Program-made: the position numbers and the translations under genes
Assembly (NCBI RefSeq): GCF_015687155.1
Contig: NZ_JADPQF010000002.1
Location: forward strand, 620,001-684,000
Origin: Aliikangiella sp. G2MR2-5
Lineage (GTDB): Bacteria; Pseudomonadota; Gammaproteobacteria; Enterobacterales; Kangiellaceae
DNA length: 64,000 nt
Reading direction: 5' to 3'
Part shown: piece by piece, positions 15,379-55,482 of the stretch
How the letters are laid out: each line of letters opens with the position of its first letter
Position numbering within the stretch: the first letter of the stretch is position 1
Notes under the pieces: generated by a model
Told to the model about the DNA's origin: nothing
The model's database searches: none
The model's input: only the letters and a program-made list of their open reading frames with translations

Positions 15379-15405
15379 ATGACTACTAGTTAATCTAGTA
15401 GTCAT
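15379..15405. repeat. Perfect 11-bp inverted repeat after the giant kinase gene
   Basis: ATGACTACTAG (15379-15389), loop TTAAT, CTAGTAGTCAT (15395-15405). It lies 58 bp beyond the stop of the minus-strand kinase gene. No T-run follows directly on either strand, so terminator, RNA-stabilising hairpin or operator are all possible. The rest of the 394-bp gap (15069-15462) shows nothing I can assign. Confidence 0.5.
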
Positions 15406-42954: not shown

Positions 42955-43085
42955 AACCAGTTATTTCTTCTTACTACAAGCTAGAACGACTAATCTGGAC
43001 AGGATCTAATTCCATATTGATCTGGCAAGATTCAAGGGCTTTAGGCATAATTCCATCTCCGATAAGTTCACATCACTCCAAGTTG

Positions 43086-43178
43086 ATGCGAATGATGGCC
43101 GCGGGAATGACGGCAGGTTATGGCAAAAGGCTTTTTCTTAAAAAGTCAGCTAGACTTTCTGACGCGGTACTCATGTGA
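43086..43178 (+). other. Possible leader peptide and attenuator before argC
   Basis: A 30-codon ORF (starts M-R-M-M-A-A, contains G-K-R-L-F-L-K-K) ends with TGA at 43176-43178, exactly where a 9-bp hairpin begins (43178-43199). Inside it AAAGTC/GACTTT (43142-43158) and GTCAG/CTGAC (43145-43163) are mutually exclusive pairings. No good ribosome site is visible and Arg codons are few, so this is weak. Confidence 0.3.
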
Positions 43179-43199
43179 AGACCAAAACCGTTTGGTCTT
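43178..43199 (+). promoter_or_regulatory. Hairpin 40 bp upstream of argC
   Basis: AAGACCAAA (43178-43186), loop ACCG, TTTGGTCTT (43191-43199), a perfect 9-bp stem followed by TGGCTTC rather than a T-run. It could be an attenuator stem or an operator. Confidence 0.45.
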
Positions 43200-43239
43200 T
43201 GGCTTCAGTGGATAAATCAACTTATTAGGAACCTCATTC

Positions 43240-44298
43240 ATGAGTAAAATCAAAGTTTCCATCATTGGTGGCGCCGGCTATGGCGCAGCTGAAATTCTTC
43301 GTCATGTATTAGTGCGAGAGGACGTTGAACTCCTTCGAATTTCCAGTAAAGATTATATTGGTCAGTCTGTTAGCCAGGTTCACAGAAATCTGCCAGGATT
43401 TGATCATGTCAAATTGCAAGATATTAGTCCGCAAGAATGTGCCGAAGGCGCCGATATCGTTTTCCTGGCAATGCCACATATCATTACCGCCAAGGTAGCT
43501 ATGGAGTTATTCGATCTTGACGTAAAAATTATCGATCTATCCGGAGACTTCCGTCTGGAAAAGCTTGAAGACTATGTTCGCGATTATGCCCCCGAACATC
43601 CGTGTCCAGAAAGACTGGGTACCTTTACTTACGGCATGCCTGAACTTAATAGTGAAGCCATCAAAAGTGCTCAGCATGTTGCAAGTCCGGGCTGTTTTGC
43701 CACTGGTATTGCGATGGGATTATTGCCTATGGCTAAAGCAGGCCTTTTAAAAGGCACCAATATCCGTACTGTTGCTATGACCGGCTCATCAGGCTCAGGT
43801 GTTAAGCCGCAAGCGGGTACTCACCACGCTGTCCGTGTTAACAATCTGAAAGCATACAAAACCTTGCACCATCAGCACCGTGCAGAAATTGTACAAACAC
43901 TTTCTCATGGGGGTGCCGAGGGTATTTCTCTTGATTTTGTACCGGTATCTGCGCCATTGGTTCGTGGTATTCTTGCGGTATCTCAAATGGACCTTCCGGA
44001 AGGGATGGAACAAGCAGATATCCAGAAAATCTACGAGGACTACTATGCCGATCACCTGCTAACAACAGTACGTCCAGCTGGAGCCCCAGCAGAAGTTGCG
44101 GCTGTATCGGGAACAGCTCGTGTTGAAATTGGTATTGATACTCGAATCGACCCTGACACAGGCACACGTACTCTTTGCCTGACCAGCGCAATTGATAATC
44201 TGATTAAAGGCGGTGCTGGACAGGCAATCCAAAGCTTCAACCTGATGACAGGTAAGCCCGCTCATTTTGGTCTTGATAATCCAGGACTGTGGCCTTAA
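43240..44298 (+). CDS. argC: N-acetyl-gamma-glutamyl-phosphate reductase
   Basis: 352 residues. Third step of arginine synthesis: NADPH-dependent reduction of N-acetylglutamyl phosphate to the semialdehyde. NADP-binding IIGGAGYGAAEILRHV at the start, catalytic Cys in ASPGCFATG (about 149), GSSGSG and the substrate-region HHAVRVNNLKAYKT with the active His. The length is close to that of ArgC/LysY-type enzymes. Start ATG with AGGAAC upstream. The stop codon sits in the loop of a strong terminator. Confidence 0.95.
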   Translation: MSKIKVSIIGGAGYGAAEILRHVLVREDVELLRISSKDYIGQSVSQVHRNLPGFDHVKLQDISPQECAEGADIVFLAMPHIITAKVAMELFDLDVKIIDLSGDFRLEKLEDYVRDYAPEHPCPERLGTFTYGMPELNSEAIKSAQHVASPGCFATGIAMGLLPMAKAGLLKGTNIRTVAMTGSSGSGVKPQAGTHHAVRVNNLKAYKTLHHQHRAEIVQTLSHGGAEGISLDFVPVSAPLVRGILAVSQMDLPEGMEQADIQKIYEDYYADHLLTTVRPAGAPAEVAAVSGTARVEIGIDTRIDPDTGTRTLCLTSAIDNLIKGGAGQAIQSFNLMTGKPAHFGLDNPGLWP

Positions 44299-44313
44299 GC
44301 CGCAGTCTTTTTT
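44285..44313 (+). terminator. Intrinsic terminator spanning the argC stop codon
   Basis: GACTGTGGC (44285-44293), loop CTTAA containing the TAA stop, GCCGCAGTC (44299-44307; one wobble pair), then TTTTTT (44308-44313). The 5' arm is coding sequence. It separates argC from argB, whose start is 52 bp further on; a TTGACA hexamer (44312-44317) overlaps the T-run and could be the -35 of an argB promoter, though no good -10 follows. Confidence 0.85.
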
Positions 44314-44364
44314 GACAAGCATAGTCTTTCTGACAACTATGGCTTTTCTGAACGGAGAATTATC

Positions 44365-45195
44365 ATGACACAATCCAAACCAACCGCCGTCATCAAAGTC
44401 GGCGGAGATGTTCTACTAGATCAGGCCGAACGCGAGGGTCTGGCACAAAACATCAAATCACTGACCGAACAAGGCTGGAGTGTTGTCCTGCTACACGGCG
44501 GCGGCCCTCAAACCAACACACTTCAGGAAAAACATGGCCTGACTCCAAACAAGGTCGCCGGTCGTCGTATTACTTCTGAAGCCGATCTGACTGTAGTAAA
44601 GCAAGCTATTGCAGGCGAAGTAAACGTTAACTTAACCTCCGAATTGATCAAAGCAGGCCTTCCAGCATTCGGCTGTCACGGTGCTTCCGGTCAGCTAATT
44701 GAGGCGACTAAACGACCTCCAGTGGTCGTTACCGGCGCAGGTCCAGATCCCATCGATTTTGGAGAAGTGGGTGATGTGCAGGCGATTAACAGAGAGCTAC
44801 TCCAAGGTCTTCTGGCGTTGAACGTCATTCCGGTTATTGCAACTCTGGGCGTCTCTAAAGAAGGTCGCATTTTCAACATCAACGCCGATACCACGGTGGT
44901 GCAAGTCGCACGTTCGCTTAAAGCCGATTTGTTGCTGCTAACAACCGGTGTGGGAGCTGTATTCCGCGATCTTGATGATCCTGACTCTCGAATTAAAGAA
45001 GTAAATCGCGAGCAGGCAAAAGCTTTGATCGATGAAGGTGTTATTCAAGGTGGAATGATCCCGAAAGTGGAAGAAGCTATGACCCTGCTCGATGAAGGTG
45101 TCGGCTCAATAGCTATTGTTTCAGGCCGCCATGCAGGGGCATTTGAAGCCGTTGCTAATGGTACAGGTGAATATGGAACGAAAATCGTTTCCTAG
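44365..45195 (+). CDS. argB: N-acetylglutamate kinase
   Basis: 276 residues. Second step of arginine synthesis: phosphorylation of N-acetylglutamate. Amino acid kinase fold with VIKVGGDVLL (catalytic Lys in the first strand), LLHGGGPQTN (ATP/phosphate loop), KVAGRRITSEADL, and INADTTVVQVARSLKADLL. GGMIPKVEEAM and IVSGRH close the site. Good GGAGAA site before the ATG. Ends with TAG at 45193-45195, after which the same frame stays open for 173 more codons. Confidence 0.95.
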   Translation: MTQSKPTAVIKVGGDVLLDQAEREGLAQNIKSLTEQGWSVVLLHGGGPQTNTLQEKHGLTPNKVAGRRITSEADLTVVKQAIAGEVNVNLTSELIKAGLPAFGCHGASGQLIEATKRPPVVVTGAGPDPIDFGEVGDVQAINRELLQGLLALNVIPVIATLGVSKEGRIFNINADTTVVQVARSLKADLLLLTTGVGAVFRDLDDPDSRIKEVNREQAKALIDEGVIQGGMIPKVEEAMTLLDEGVGSIAIVSGRHAGAFEAVANGTGEYGTKIVS

Positions 45196-45201
45196 AGCCA
45201 A

Positions 45202-45714
45202 CTGTTTGCTGAGTACTTCCGGCGAGCTTTTCAAAAGCTCGCCTACTTACTTGTCTCACTTGTAGTTATTATTCAACCTGCAACTGCCGAGAGAGGCCTT
45301 TGCGTATGCTGTGATTCAAGAAGCATTATTATCGAACTCGAAACAATTGACTGCAAAGAAGTTAGAAAACCCAAATTTAAAAAAATCGGCAGCCTGATTC
45401 AAGAGAGACTCTTGATTATCAACGGAAAGATTACAGGAAAACTGGAAGTCGAAAATTTCAATTCTTTCGAAGTAGTAAATCATCAAAAGGGACTTAGCGA
45501 AGAAGCTACTTTTGTTTATGACCAATCCGATGAAAAATCCTGCGAAGACTTTCCAAAAGGTCTGTCCCGACTGGTCGTAGAGATTAAATGGCTATGCGTT
45601 GGTGATATTTCTGGTGACACTATTTGTGAGCATGAAGGTAGGACTATAAGGTTAATTGATAACAAGCTGAGAAGTTTACTAAAGCTAAACACATTAACTT
45701 TTGAGCTGAACTAA
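45202..45714 (+). CDS. Exported Cys-rich hypothetical protein, start codon unresolved
   Basis: The frame of argB continues without a stop from 45196 to 45714. Translated, it gives a typical signal peptide (FRRAFQKLAYLLVSLVVIIQ then PATA-E) and a mature part with GLCVCCDS and at least four more cysteines, so it looks like a secreted protein of about 140 residues. There is no ATG, GTG or TTG before 45412, which lies after the signal. CTG at 45202 (with TAGAG nearby) is the only plausible near-cognate start; read-through of the argB TAG, a lost start or a sequence error are alternatives. The TTG at 45412 alone would give a 100-residue fragment. Confidence 0.5.
   Translation: MFAEYFRRAFQKLAYLLVSLVVIIQPATAERGLCVCCDSRSIIIELETIDCKEVRKPKFKKIGSLIQERLLIINGKITGKLEVENFNSFEVVNHQKGLSEEATFVYDQSDEKSCEDFPKGLSRLVVEIKWLCVGDISGDTICEHEGRTIRLIDNKLRSLLKLNTLTFELN
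45221..45243 (+). repeat. 11-bp inverted repeat after argB
   Basis: GGCGAGCTTTT (45221-45231), C, AAAAGCTCGCC (45233-45243): the outer GGCGAGC/GCTCGCC would form a stem 25 nt after the argB stop. The following TACTTACTTG is not a T-run. It lies within the signal-peptide ORF. Confidence 0.55.
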
Positions 45715-45760
45715 ATTAAATAATTCCAGTCGAAGTTAACACCTCCCCGTCAATGAACAT

Positions 45761-45781
45761 GCAACTTGCAACTTGCAACTT
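45761..45781 (+). repeat. Heptanucleotide tandem repeat (GCAACTT)3 at a gene start
   Basis: Three perfect units directly before the ATG at 45782. Two ATGs in another frame lie just upstream (45753, 45759). Because 7 is not a multiple of 3, gain of one unit or loss of two would place these ATGs in frame with the gene. Confidence 0.75.
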
Positions 45782-46564
45782 ATGGAACTAAGTTATTTTG
45801 AGCTTTTAGATGAAAGCGCAAAGCCAAAATTCATTGCCAACAAATTTCTGTTAATAGCACTTTTTACTTCAATATTAATTCATGCTCTCATTCTGCAAGT
45901 TATCGGCAATCGTAAAAATCAGAGTTCTATTCAACCTTTTACTTTTGGTCAGACATCATTTAATATTGAAATCTTGTCGGAAGAAGTCAAGCTCGAAAAA
46001 TCTGAAAAAGCAGACCTCTCTCAAGAGATAACAGTGCCTCAAAACATCAAGAAAACTGGAACAAAAATAAAACCTTTGACCAAACCAAAAAATAATCCTA
46101 TAGATAAAAGCGAGAAACAAACCACGACTAGTCCAGCTCATGAACGAGCCACTAGTAAGCAATCGAAAAAACCTTCAACTCCCCCTTCCTTTTCTTCAAT
46201 TCGAGAGCAAGTTCAACAATTGGAAAGGGATGGTCTGATAGAATTAAATGATTCTCCTTCCTCTAGATTTGATCCACGTTTAGAACCCCACTTAGAAAAA
46301 CACGAACAAGAACTAACTCGAAAGAAAGATATTGAAGAGGCCAGACAGTTTCGTAAAGACAACGAGTTCTATCAATTCAAAGCGACCGGAGATACTCAAG
46401 TCGTTCGACGAAACGGACACTGCTTTATTGTACCGATTAATTTAGGAATGGAACCGGAGTATCGTCCATGGGTATATATTGGCAAATGTGGAAAGAAAAA
46501 AAAGCTAGACTTTAGCCGCGCCGCTAGAGACAAAAAAGCATTTGAAAAAGGACGCGATTTCTAG
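45782..46564 (+). CDS. TonB-like single-pass membrane protein
   Basis: About 260 residues from the ATG at 45782. One membrane helix at about 23-42 (FLLIALFTSILIHALILQVI, like the TonB anchor with an embedded His), then a long Lys/Thr/Pro-rich linker (LTKPKNNPIDKSEKQTTTSP) and a C-terminal region of about 80 residues with RRNGHCFIVPINLGMEP and VYIGKCGKKKKLDF, with two Cys that could pair. The layout suggests a periplasm-spanning TonB/TolA-type protein, but no ExbB/ExbD or TonB-box genes are close and the C-terminal domain is not a clear TonB_C. No Shine-Dalgarno site is visible because the heptamer repeat fills that space. Confidence 0.65.
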   Translation: MELSYFELLDESAKPKFIANKFLLIALFTSILIHALILQVIGNRKNQSSIQPFTFGQTSFNIEILSEEVKLEKSEKADLSQEITVPQNIKKTGTKIKPLTKPKNNPIDKSEKQTTTSPAHERATSKQSKKPSTPPSFSSIREQVQQLERDGLIELNDSPSSRFDPRLEPHLEKHEQELTRKKDIEEARQFRKDNEFYQFKATGDTQVVRRNGHCFIVPINLGMEPEYRPWVYIGKCGKKKKLDFSRAARDKKAFEKGRDF

Positions 46565-46673
46565 CCAAACCAGTTCATGCCGGATAGTTTCAACCATTTT
46601 ACTTACCACACGGTCAACCAATCAGTCACTACTCCGTTATAACAAGTGAAACAACTTGAAAGTGGAGAGAACA

Positions 46674-46997
46674 ATGAAAAGTCTGACAACAAAAATATCG
46701 GCATTAACCTTTATCGCACTATTTTCAGGACCTATTTTGGCTGGTACACCGGTTCTTGATAATCGACAGGATAATCAAAAAGCCCGTATTAAGCAGGGTG
46801 TTAAAAACGGCGAACTAACCAACAAGGAAGCAAAAAAACTGATTCAAGGGCAAAGACAGCTACAAAAGATGGAACTCAAAGCAAAATCAGATGGCGTTGT
46901 AACTCAAAAAGAAAGAGCCAAACTCCAGCACAAAGCGAATATTGAATCTGCCAAAATAGCGAAAATCAAACATGATCGTCAGGATAGAAAACCTTAA
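46674..46997 (+). CDS. Small secreted protein with a VLDNRQDNQKARIKQG motif
   Basis: 107 residues from the ATG at 46674, preceded by GGAGAG. Signal peptide ending in PILAG, then a helical, strongly basic mature part: VLDNRQDNQKARIKQGVKNG, ELTNKEAKKLIQGQRQL and VVTQKERAKLQHKANI. The repeated pattern G-E-L-T-x-K-E-A / G-V-V-T-Q-K-E-R resembles two EF-hand-like helix pairs without calcium ligands. Proteins of this pattern are common in proteobacteria but of unknown function. Periplasmic. Confidence 0.75.
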   Translation: MKSLTTKISALTFIALFSGPILAGTPVLDNRQDNQKARIKQGVKNGELTNKEAKKLIQGQRQLQKMELKAKSDGVVTQKERAKLQHKANIESAKIAKIKHDRQDRKP

Positions 46998-47058
46998 ACT
47001 GCTATTGATAAAACATTGGCCAGCAATCTTTCAAACTGCCATTGTTAAAAGCACCGTA

Positions 47059-47092
47059 TTTTCAGCTGTTGATTCTTACCGACAGCTGAAAA
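47059..47092. repeat. 11-bp inverted repeat between convergent genes
   Basis: TTTTCAGCTGT (47059-47069), 12-nt loop, ACAGCTGAAAA (47082-47092). It sits between the stops of the basic secreted-protein gene and the convergent Pmp3-like gene, so it may act as a two-way terminator, although neither side has a separate T-run. Confidence 0.5.
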
Positions 47093-47117
47093 TATCATCT
47101 ACAAAATAAAAAAATGG

Positions 47118-47276
47118 TTACTTGGTGACTAACCACAGCGCATGGATCATACCCGGCAGAAAAAAGAGCAGGCACAACAAGATGTTTATAACCAGATCTT
47201 TGCCAACACTTTTTTTTAGGAATACGGCTAGAGGAGGAAGAAATATCGCAATAAGGATAAGCACTACTTTATTCAT
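47118..47276 (-). CDS. YqaE/Pmp3-family small membrane protein
   Basis: 52 residues, short enough to be missed by length cut-offs. Starts MNKVVLILIAIFLPPLAVF and continues KKSVGKDLVINILLCLLFFLPGMIHALWLV: the two-helix Pmp3/UPF0057 pattern with LPPLAVFL, a basic loop with G, I-N-I-L-L and P-G-x-I-H-A. Family members are stress-induced inner-membrane proteins linked to membrane potential in yeast and plants. ATG start one base after the stop of the DUF3185 gene, so the two form an operon. Confidence 0.85.
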   Translation of the reverse strand: MNKVVLILIAIFLPPLAVFLKKSVGKDLVINILLCLLFFLPGMIHALWLVTK

Positions 47277-47277
47277 A

Positions 47278-47469
47278 TCATTTCACCCTAAAAACACCAA
47301 TAACAACGCAGACAGCACCACCGACTAATCCAATCCAGGCTTCAATTGGCGTATCTCCGCTAAAAGTTCTACTAAATTGCGAGCCGACAGAATCGTAAAC
47401 GTTATACCCCCAGGCAATTAAAGCGACACCGGCGATGATCAGAATGATTCCGATAATTTTATTGTTCAT
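47278..47469 (-). CDS. DUF3185 membrane protein
   Basis: 63 residues from the ATG at 47469 (MNNKIIGIILIIAGVALIA). Two helices with a loop YDSVGSQFSRTFSGDTP between, the DUF3185 pattern; the second helix is WIGLVGGAVCVVIGVF. An in-frame upstream start at 47511 would add 14 unlikely residues. Pairs with the Pmp3-like gene, suggesting a shared envelope or osmotic stress role. Confidence 0.82.
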   Translation of the reverse strand: MNNKIIGIILIIAGVALIAWGYNVYDSVGSQFSRTFSGDTPIEAWIGLVGGAVCVVIGVFRVK

Positions 47470-47554
47470 GCGATATCCTGTAATTATTATTAGCGTTTGA
47501 TTAACTTTCACACAGAGCAGATAGCCATGTCAAATTTTGGAAAATTTATTGTAG

Positions 47555-48457
47555 TTATCTGCGGCTCAGTAGCTGCCGAAAAGGTTTAATAAGATATAGC
47601 AATAATCCAAACCAGATAAAAACAAAACTCAACAACTGTTCACTTCCCAAGGGTTCTTGATAATACTGGGTTGCCAGTAAAAATGATAATGAAGGTGCAA
47701 TAAACTGCAAAAAGCCAACGCTGTTCAGTGGGATCTTCTTGGCTGCGGCGGCAAACATTATCAAAGGGATCGCGGTAATCACTCCACCCAGCGCAAGCAG
47801 AAGATCGGTCTCGATTGTACTATTTAAAAATACTGCCTGCTCAGTAGACAGAATCCATAATATATATCCCAGGGCAATTGGCAATGCTAGAGTCGTTTCT
47901 ACCAGTAATCCATTCAATGAGTCGACATCAAGTTTTTTGCGTATAAAACCATAAAGCGCAAAGCTGGTAGCCAGACTCAAAGCAATCCACGGAAATTCAC
48001 CGTAGTTGATTATTTGATTGCCGACTCCAACGCAAGCAAAAAAAACGGCTCCCCACTGCAACCTGGAAAGCCTTTCTGCGAAAAAGATCACGCCCAGTAT
48101 TATCGACATAATAGGATTGATAAAATAACCCAGACTAGTTGCTAAGATTTGCTCATGGGTAACAGCCCAGGTAAAAATGAACCAGTTGCAAGAAACCAGA
48201 GCTGTCGATGTAGCCAGTCCAAGCAATAACTTTCTATTGCGAAAAACATTTAACAGTTTAAAAGGTTTTCTCAACGCCCAGATAAAGAACAGAGTCACAG
48301 GTACACACCAGGCTATTCGATGAGCAAGGATCTCTTCAGCTGAAACATTGGCGACAGCCTTGAAATATAGAGGAACCAATCCCCACCATACAAATGCGCC
48401 AATGCCAAAAAACCAGCCACTTGAATCAGTCGCGTTTTGTTGGGCTACTTTTTCCAT
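47555..48457 (-). CDS. rarD: RarD-type EamA transporter
   Basis: About 300 residues from the ATG at 48457 (MEKVAQ); the longer open frame runs into the upstream gene. Ten helices; FGIGAFVWWGLVPLYFKAV, ILAHRIAWCVPVTLFF and SLGYFINPIMSIILGVIFFAERL are RarD marks. RarD proteins are chloramphenicol-sensitivity/permease-like DMT members of unproven substrate. Start lies 17 bp after the stop of the flavin-reductase gene, so the two are probably co-transcribed. Confidence 0.9.
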   Translation of the reverse strand: MEKVAQQNATDSSGWFFGIGAFVWWGLVPLYFKAVANVSAEEILAHRIAWCVPVTLFFIWALRKPFKLLNVFRNRKLLLGLATSTALVSCNWFIFTWAVTHEQILATSLGYFINPIMSIILGVIFFAERLSRLQWGAVFFACVGVGNQIINYGEFPWIALSLATSFALYGFIRKKLDVDSLNGLLVETTLALPIALGYILWILSTEQAVFLNSTIETDLLLALGGVITAIPLIMFAAAAKKIPLNSVGFLQFIAPSLSFLLATQYYQEPLGSEQLLSFVFIWFGLLLYLIKPFRQLLSRR

Positions 48458-55281: not shown

Positions 55282-55333
55282 TCTAACTAATTAATTTTCA
55301 AGCAATTAATTGGTTACGATATATCATCTTAAT

Positions 55334-55361
55334 GAAAAAGCGACCTGATAGTCGCTTTTTC
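55334..55361 (+). terminator. Intrinsic terminator after the 62-residue protein gene
   Basis: GAAAAAGCGAC (55334-55344), loop CTGATA, GTCGCTTTTTC (55351-55361): perfect 11-bp stem with the T-run inside the 3' arm. Confidence 0.9.
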
Positions 55362-55482
55362 ATTTTATCTTGCTCTCAGTATCCCCTAAAATAAGCGCCA
55401 GCTTGCAAGATACACAACTCAAATTTTGTAGCAATTGCAATTTTCCAACCATCACGATAATAAATATTAGCAGTAGTAGCCA

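Follow-up and report, generated by a model that had tools for sequence, protein, structure and literature searches.

Coding frames that run from stop to stop without one of the usual start codons are a known class, the StORFs, according to the excerpted account of StORF-Reporter (PMC10682499). With regard to initiation outside the standard codons, the excerpt of PMC11497404 describes CUG initiation complexes as less stable and inefficient, and that of PMC13009471 describes natural noncanonical starts in S. aureus as being accompanied by extended Shine-Dalgarno (SD) sequences. The reinitiation work in the excerpt of PMC4648390 is eukaryotic. Here we describe a bacterial frame that opens directly behind the stop codon of argB and reaches well past a putative signal peptide before its first standard start. 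It lies in a stretch of 64,000 nucleotides, referred to as the window, and its features are collected in Table 1.

Table 1. Features at and around the open frame downstream of argB
Feature	Position	Strand	Basis or remark
argB, acetylglutamate kinase; stop TAG 45193-45195	44365..45195	+	TIGR00761, 192.5 bits (cutoff 151.3)
Out-of-frame ATG ORF, 30 codons	45173..45265	+	Overlaps argB end; SD -4.5 kcal/mol, best of local candidates
Open frame, 172 codons + TAA	45196..45714	+	No ATG, GTG or TTG before 45412
CTG, candidate start	45202..45204	+	Sole in-frame NTG upstream of hydrophobic core
Putative signal peptide (if CTG is used): n-region FAEYFRRAFQK, core LAYLLVSLVVII, ATA before E32	45202..45288	+	Sequence; homologue alignment
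Out-of-frame TTG	45206..45208	+	Register of ATG 45173; 4 nt past start of CTG 45202
Perfect inverted repeat, 11-bp arms, 1-nt center, no T tract	45221..45243	+	Overlaps codons 9-16
Mature domain, 7 cysteines	45289..45711	+	All kept in G035 homologue
Next gene, unnamed, N-terminal hydrophobic segment	45782..46564	+	36.6% over 134 aa, E 3.6e-22 in L005
G035 homologue, 161 residues, ATG + signal peptide	L012:1450-1935	-	

The open frame and its homologue

The preliminary description had stated that the argB frame stays open past the TAG and that no normal start follows until TTG 45412, beyond the signal. Both statements were confirmed: the frame shared with argB is open from 45196 to the TAA at 45712-45714, giving 172 residues, and its first in-frame ATG, GTG or TTG is TTG 45412, at codon 73. 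The window holds 75 stop-to-stop frames that are 100 codons or longer, and in 3 of them the first standard start comes 40 or more codons into the frame. Of these 3, only the present frame exceeds 120 codons, and it also has the largest start offset; one of the two others runs antisense to argB. Missing starts alone are only mildly unusual, since 352 of 12,426 72-codon segments (2.8%) inside the 32 long ORFs of the window are likewise free of ATG, GTG and TTG. The noteworthy point is that the start-free run spans the signal peptide.

Codon usage in the mature part scored best of the six frames but weakly (+0.09 bit/codon over 141 codons, compared to +0.25 for argB) and was close to neutral in the first 31 codons (+0.08). 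GC content was 0.50 in argB, 0.39 in the frame and 0.37 in the gene that follows. That the frame is a real coding sequence is shown by its homologue, not by its codon usage. Among 40 family genomes, our own included, a single homologue was found, in another genus (genome G035, E 1.4e-20); the match spans residues 12-158 of 172, with 29% identity overall. All 7 mature cysteines (C36, C38, C39, C53, C116, C134 and C144) are invariant and in register, which bears out the Cys-rich mature protein of the preliminary description, and its signal-peptide reading is supported by the fact that the homologue has the same layout and an ATG. Over the 141 mature codons, identity between the two sequences was 0.47, 0.53 and 0.33 at the first, second and third codon positions; the third positions are thus the least conserved, which fits a protein-coding relation. 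The two signal-peptide segments also aligned with a score that was reached by only 0.85% of 2,000 shuffles. On these comparisons, the gene is real, or was until very recently, and would encode a small exported seven-cysteine protein of a rare, unnamed family.

Further members were searched for in 394 genomes of the order, 369 of the class and 398 of the phylum (overlapping samples, each holding our own genome), and none was found. Pattern scans of genome contigs returned 40 and 24 stretches and those of viral contigs 49, none of which was confirmed as a family member, and plasmids yielded no homologue. Chance was taken to account for the matches in G313 (E 0.00995, 2 stops) and G717 (E 0.004, 2 TAA), and scanning both loci for C-x-C-C returned nothing family-like; two matches in G002 (E 0.09 and 0.5), one of them with 3 internal stops, were discounted in the same way. 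Pfam, NCBIfam, PHROGs and PDB sequences gave no convincing match for the protein, whose family is without a Pfam or NCBIfam name.

The homologue search found no copy of the gene in the six other genomes of the genus, so it is not essential there. In the closest relative (G004), whose ArgB is 86% identical, the counterpart of 45782-46564 lies behind argB without the seven-cysteine frame between them, and comparison of the gap downstream of argB with that of this relative revealed no clear gene remnant, the aligned stretch not being meaningful. We read the gene as either locally added or a survivor. The frames behind argB vary among genus members (L005-L010), as if this were a spot of gene turnover. 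The next gene had no Pfam match. A tandem repeat at 45756-45781 (7-nt unit AACTTGC, 3.7 copies) abuts its ATG at 45782, which is without SD-like pairing, and the repeat is a possible length-variable leader.

A hairpin behind argB and the 5' end of the frame

The core of the putative signal peptide has a mean hydropathy of 3.04. Three or more K/R and no D/E in the six residues before the core, as found here, are seen with 7 of 98 core-like hydrophobic segments when all six frames of the window are counted, which makes the n-region somewhat better than chance, though this argument was made after the fact. Its RRAFQK stretch, encoded at 45220-45237 in the hairpin region, is similar to the Tat motif, and RRxFxK has 3 occurrences among the 127,996 residues of the window's six-frame translation. 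Given the strong hydrophobicity of the core and the lack of an RR in the homologue, Sec appears a more likely export route than Tat.

The preliminary description had overlooked the perfect hairpin at 45221-45243, which overlaps the n-region, as well as the out-of-frame ATG 45173 and TTG 45206. The hairpin begins 26 nt past the argB stop and is present in a single copy in the genome, which rules it out as a repeat element. It has no T tract and was not scored as an intrinsic terminator in a terminator scan, and an Rfam search over 43000-47600 returned no relevant RNA family, with one sub-threshold microRNA match inside argC. Counting hairpins that lie at most 90 nt behind argB and whose strength is matched by no more than 2% of shuffles, we found hairpins of unrelated sequence in 5 of the 6 relatives from the genus and, over a family sample of 20 relatives that includes the genus, in 11, the other 9 having none at that level. 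Since relatives carry hairpins at that place, the one at 45221-45243 is best assigned to the 3' end of argB itself, and codons 1-16 of the frame are best read as sequence that is, or was, the argB 3' untranslated region. Two other inverted repeats with perfect arms of at least 11 bp occur in the window, at 15379-15405 and 55331-55364.

These positions bear on the possibility, nearly tied with the CTG initiation that we favor below, that the start was recently lost. A recent junction or mutation would have removed the gene's own leader and ATG, and the remnant, joined to the argB 3' hairpin, would be hardly or not at all translated, stops having not yet gathered in it. In the alignment, the ATG of the G035 homologue falls on codon 13 (45232), inside the hairpin, which is itself placed like the argB hairpins of relatives; both facts favor such an event, as do the lack of an SD and of a promoter-like site and the absence of the gene from the six other genus genomes. 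Start-codon loss is, in addition, a recognized route to pseudogenes in the excerpt of PMC10682499. On the other hand, the 7 cysteines and the full 141-codon mature frame are intact, and the stretch coded by the hairpin happens to supply, in the correct frame, a well-formed n-region, at the chance level given above. In the comparison with relatives for an ATG that the preliminary description proposed, an ATG is present in the sole homologue, which is distant, and the six other genus genomes are without the gene.

Candidate starts and their rivals

We then weighed the ways in which the frame could be translated; the weights given to these readings are judgements and not computed probabilities. 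Pairing of the sequence upstream of CTG 45202 with the anti-SD amounts to -2.1 kcal/mol, a value that 37% of random sites equal or exceed in strength. The ATG of the G035 homologue has a similarly poor SD (-1.5 kcal/mol), suggesting that weak initiation may be the norm in this family, and the missing SD is thus not a strong argument against CTG. Between 44300 and 46800, the + strand yielded no promoter-like site.

Our tentative first choice is that ribosomes coming straight from argB translation initiate weakly at CTG 45202, which gives a good putative signal peptide. The gene adjoins argB directly, its 5' end fused to the argB 3' untranslated hairpin, and the ribosomes concerned would be those that terminate at the argB TAG, 6 nt upstream. 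The product would carry a 29-residue signal peptide, with a stretch of its positively charged n-region (RRAFQK) encoded by the hairpin, followed by a secreted mature domain presumably folded by disulfides. This choice is favored by the homologue with the same signal-plus-cysteine layout, by the least-conserved third codon positions and by the frame being open from the argB stop, as well as by an n-region with 3 K/R and no D/E, by the few occurrences of RRxFxK, by CTG being the only in-frame NTG before the core and by the poor SD of the homologue's own ATG. It is weakened by the lack of an SD and of a + strand promoter-like site, by the out-of-frame TTG 45206, which would compete with CTG 45202 for initiation, and by the inefficiency of CUG and the extended SDs of noncanonical starts in the excerpted sources cited above (PMC11497404 and PMC13009471). 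Codons 1-12 are moreover without a counterpart, the homologue starting at the equivalent of codon 13, codon usage at the 5' end is near neutral, and the segment coincides in position with the argB 3' hairpin, which is what one expects of an untranslated region. The fuller proposal, that this is a natural CTG-initiated exported protein dependent solely on argB ribosomes, in which an untranslated argB 3' hairpin was taken over as the n-region of a secretion signal and output is tied to arginine-gene expression, is doubtful.

The two standard starts just upstream, one register off, raise the question of whether a standard start is hidden by a wrong base or a small indel, either in the assembly or in the isolate, for example one that cuts the frame off from ATG 45173 or TTG 45206. 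The SD of ATG 45173 and the short homopolymer runs within the hairpin would suit such an error, which comes third among the readings and which we consider improbable: the hairpin reads as fully symmetrical, the contig measures 757 kb in an assembly rated 100% complete, and ATG 45173 is formed by TAT-GGA in the argB tail, where the codons of relatives (TAC GGT, TTT GGC, TCA GGT, etc.) contain no ATG.

From ATG 45173, the signal-peptide frame can be reached only via a -1 shift. A hairpin-aided -1 frameshift from the register of ATG 45173 and TTG 45206 would find a start with a fair SD and then a stable hairpin in the correct order. Such recoding is nevertheless very unlikely, since no X XXY YYZ slippery site was seen by eye before the hairpin, the runs sitting within it, and ATG 45173 is not kept in relatives.

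Of the four options in the preliminary description, namely CTG initiation, a lost start, a base error and read-through of the argB TAG into an ArgB fusion, the first three still stand and the last is disfavored. The frame is the same and no other stop intervenes, as read-through would require, but the ArgB end is equivalent in 6 of 6 genus relatives, all without the seven-cysteine domain, so that nothing points to an ancestral fusion, and a signal peptide buried behind a cytoplasmic kinase would not make sense. We regard this option as the least credible of all.

What the locus means depends on the reading. Should translation start at the CTG with no SD, the frame would be a case of natural coupled non-AUG initiation with an n-region drawn from the 3' hairpin of a neighbor; start-based gene callers would then pick TTG 45412, predicting a cytoplasmic protein of 100 aa and missing the export signal. 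As a remnant without a start, it would be an ordinary snapshot of gene loss. Under either reading, such loci need a stop-to-stop view together with homologues.

Comparison with known systems

Two structure models of the seven-cysteine protein were both poor (mean pLDDT of about 44). A Foldseek search with the first model gave no match at E <= 0.001, and the VIA matches of both poor models were mostly OB-folds with Z scores of about 5 or less. TIMP-2 was among them at Z 3.6-4.6, with 2e2d_C (Z 4.6, rmsd 3.9 A, 73 aligned) and 1br9 (Z 4.6, rmsd 5.0 A, 76 aligned) ranking with the best matches. A C-x-C just behind the signal peptide is a feature of TIMPs. The C-x-C directly after the cleavage site here, taken together with the OB-fold and TIMP-2 matches, hints at an OB/NTR(TIMP)-like fold, which is a reasonable lead but no more. 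The protein resembles the OB-folds of the NTR/TIMP type in this C-x-C, in its several cysteines and in its beta-rich models, but differs from them in having no sequence match and poor models (pLDDT 44), with other OB-folds scoring equally.

The closest likeness is to the G035 protein, with which it shares the signal peptide, the 7 mature cysteines and conserved CxCC, FVY, SC..FP.G and CVG.I motifs. In contrast to our frame, the G035 gene has its ATG 18 codons before the cleavage site, lies in another neighborhood and has an n-region that is not hairpin coded. A standard start directly ahead of the signal is thus present in G035 and absent here (codons 1-72), a difference between only two members that may not define the family.

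As in the StORFs of the excerpted report (PMC10682499), this is an intergenic coding frame that start-based gene callers miss or shorten. Unlike in that general class, the present case has an identifiable upstream codon, CTG, and overlaps the 3' hairpin of the neighboring gene.
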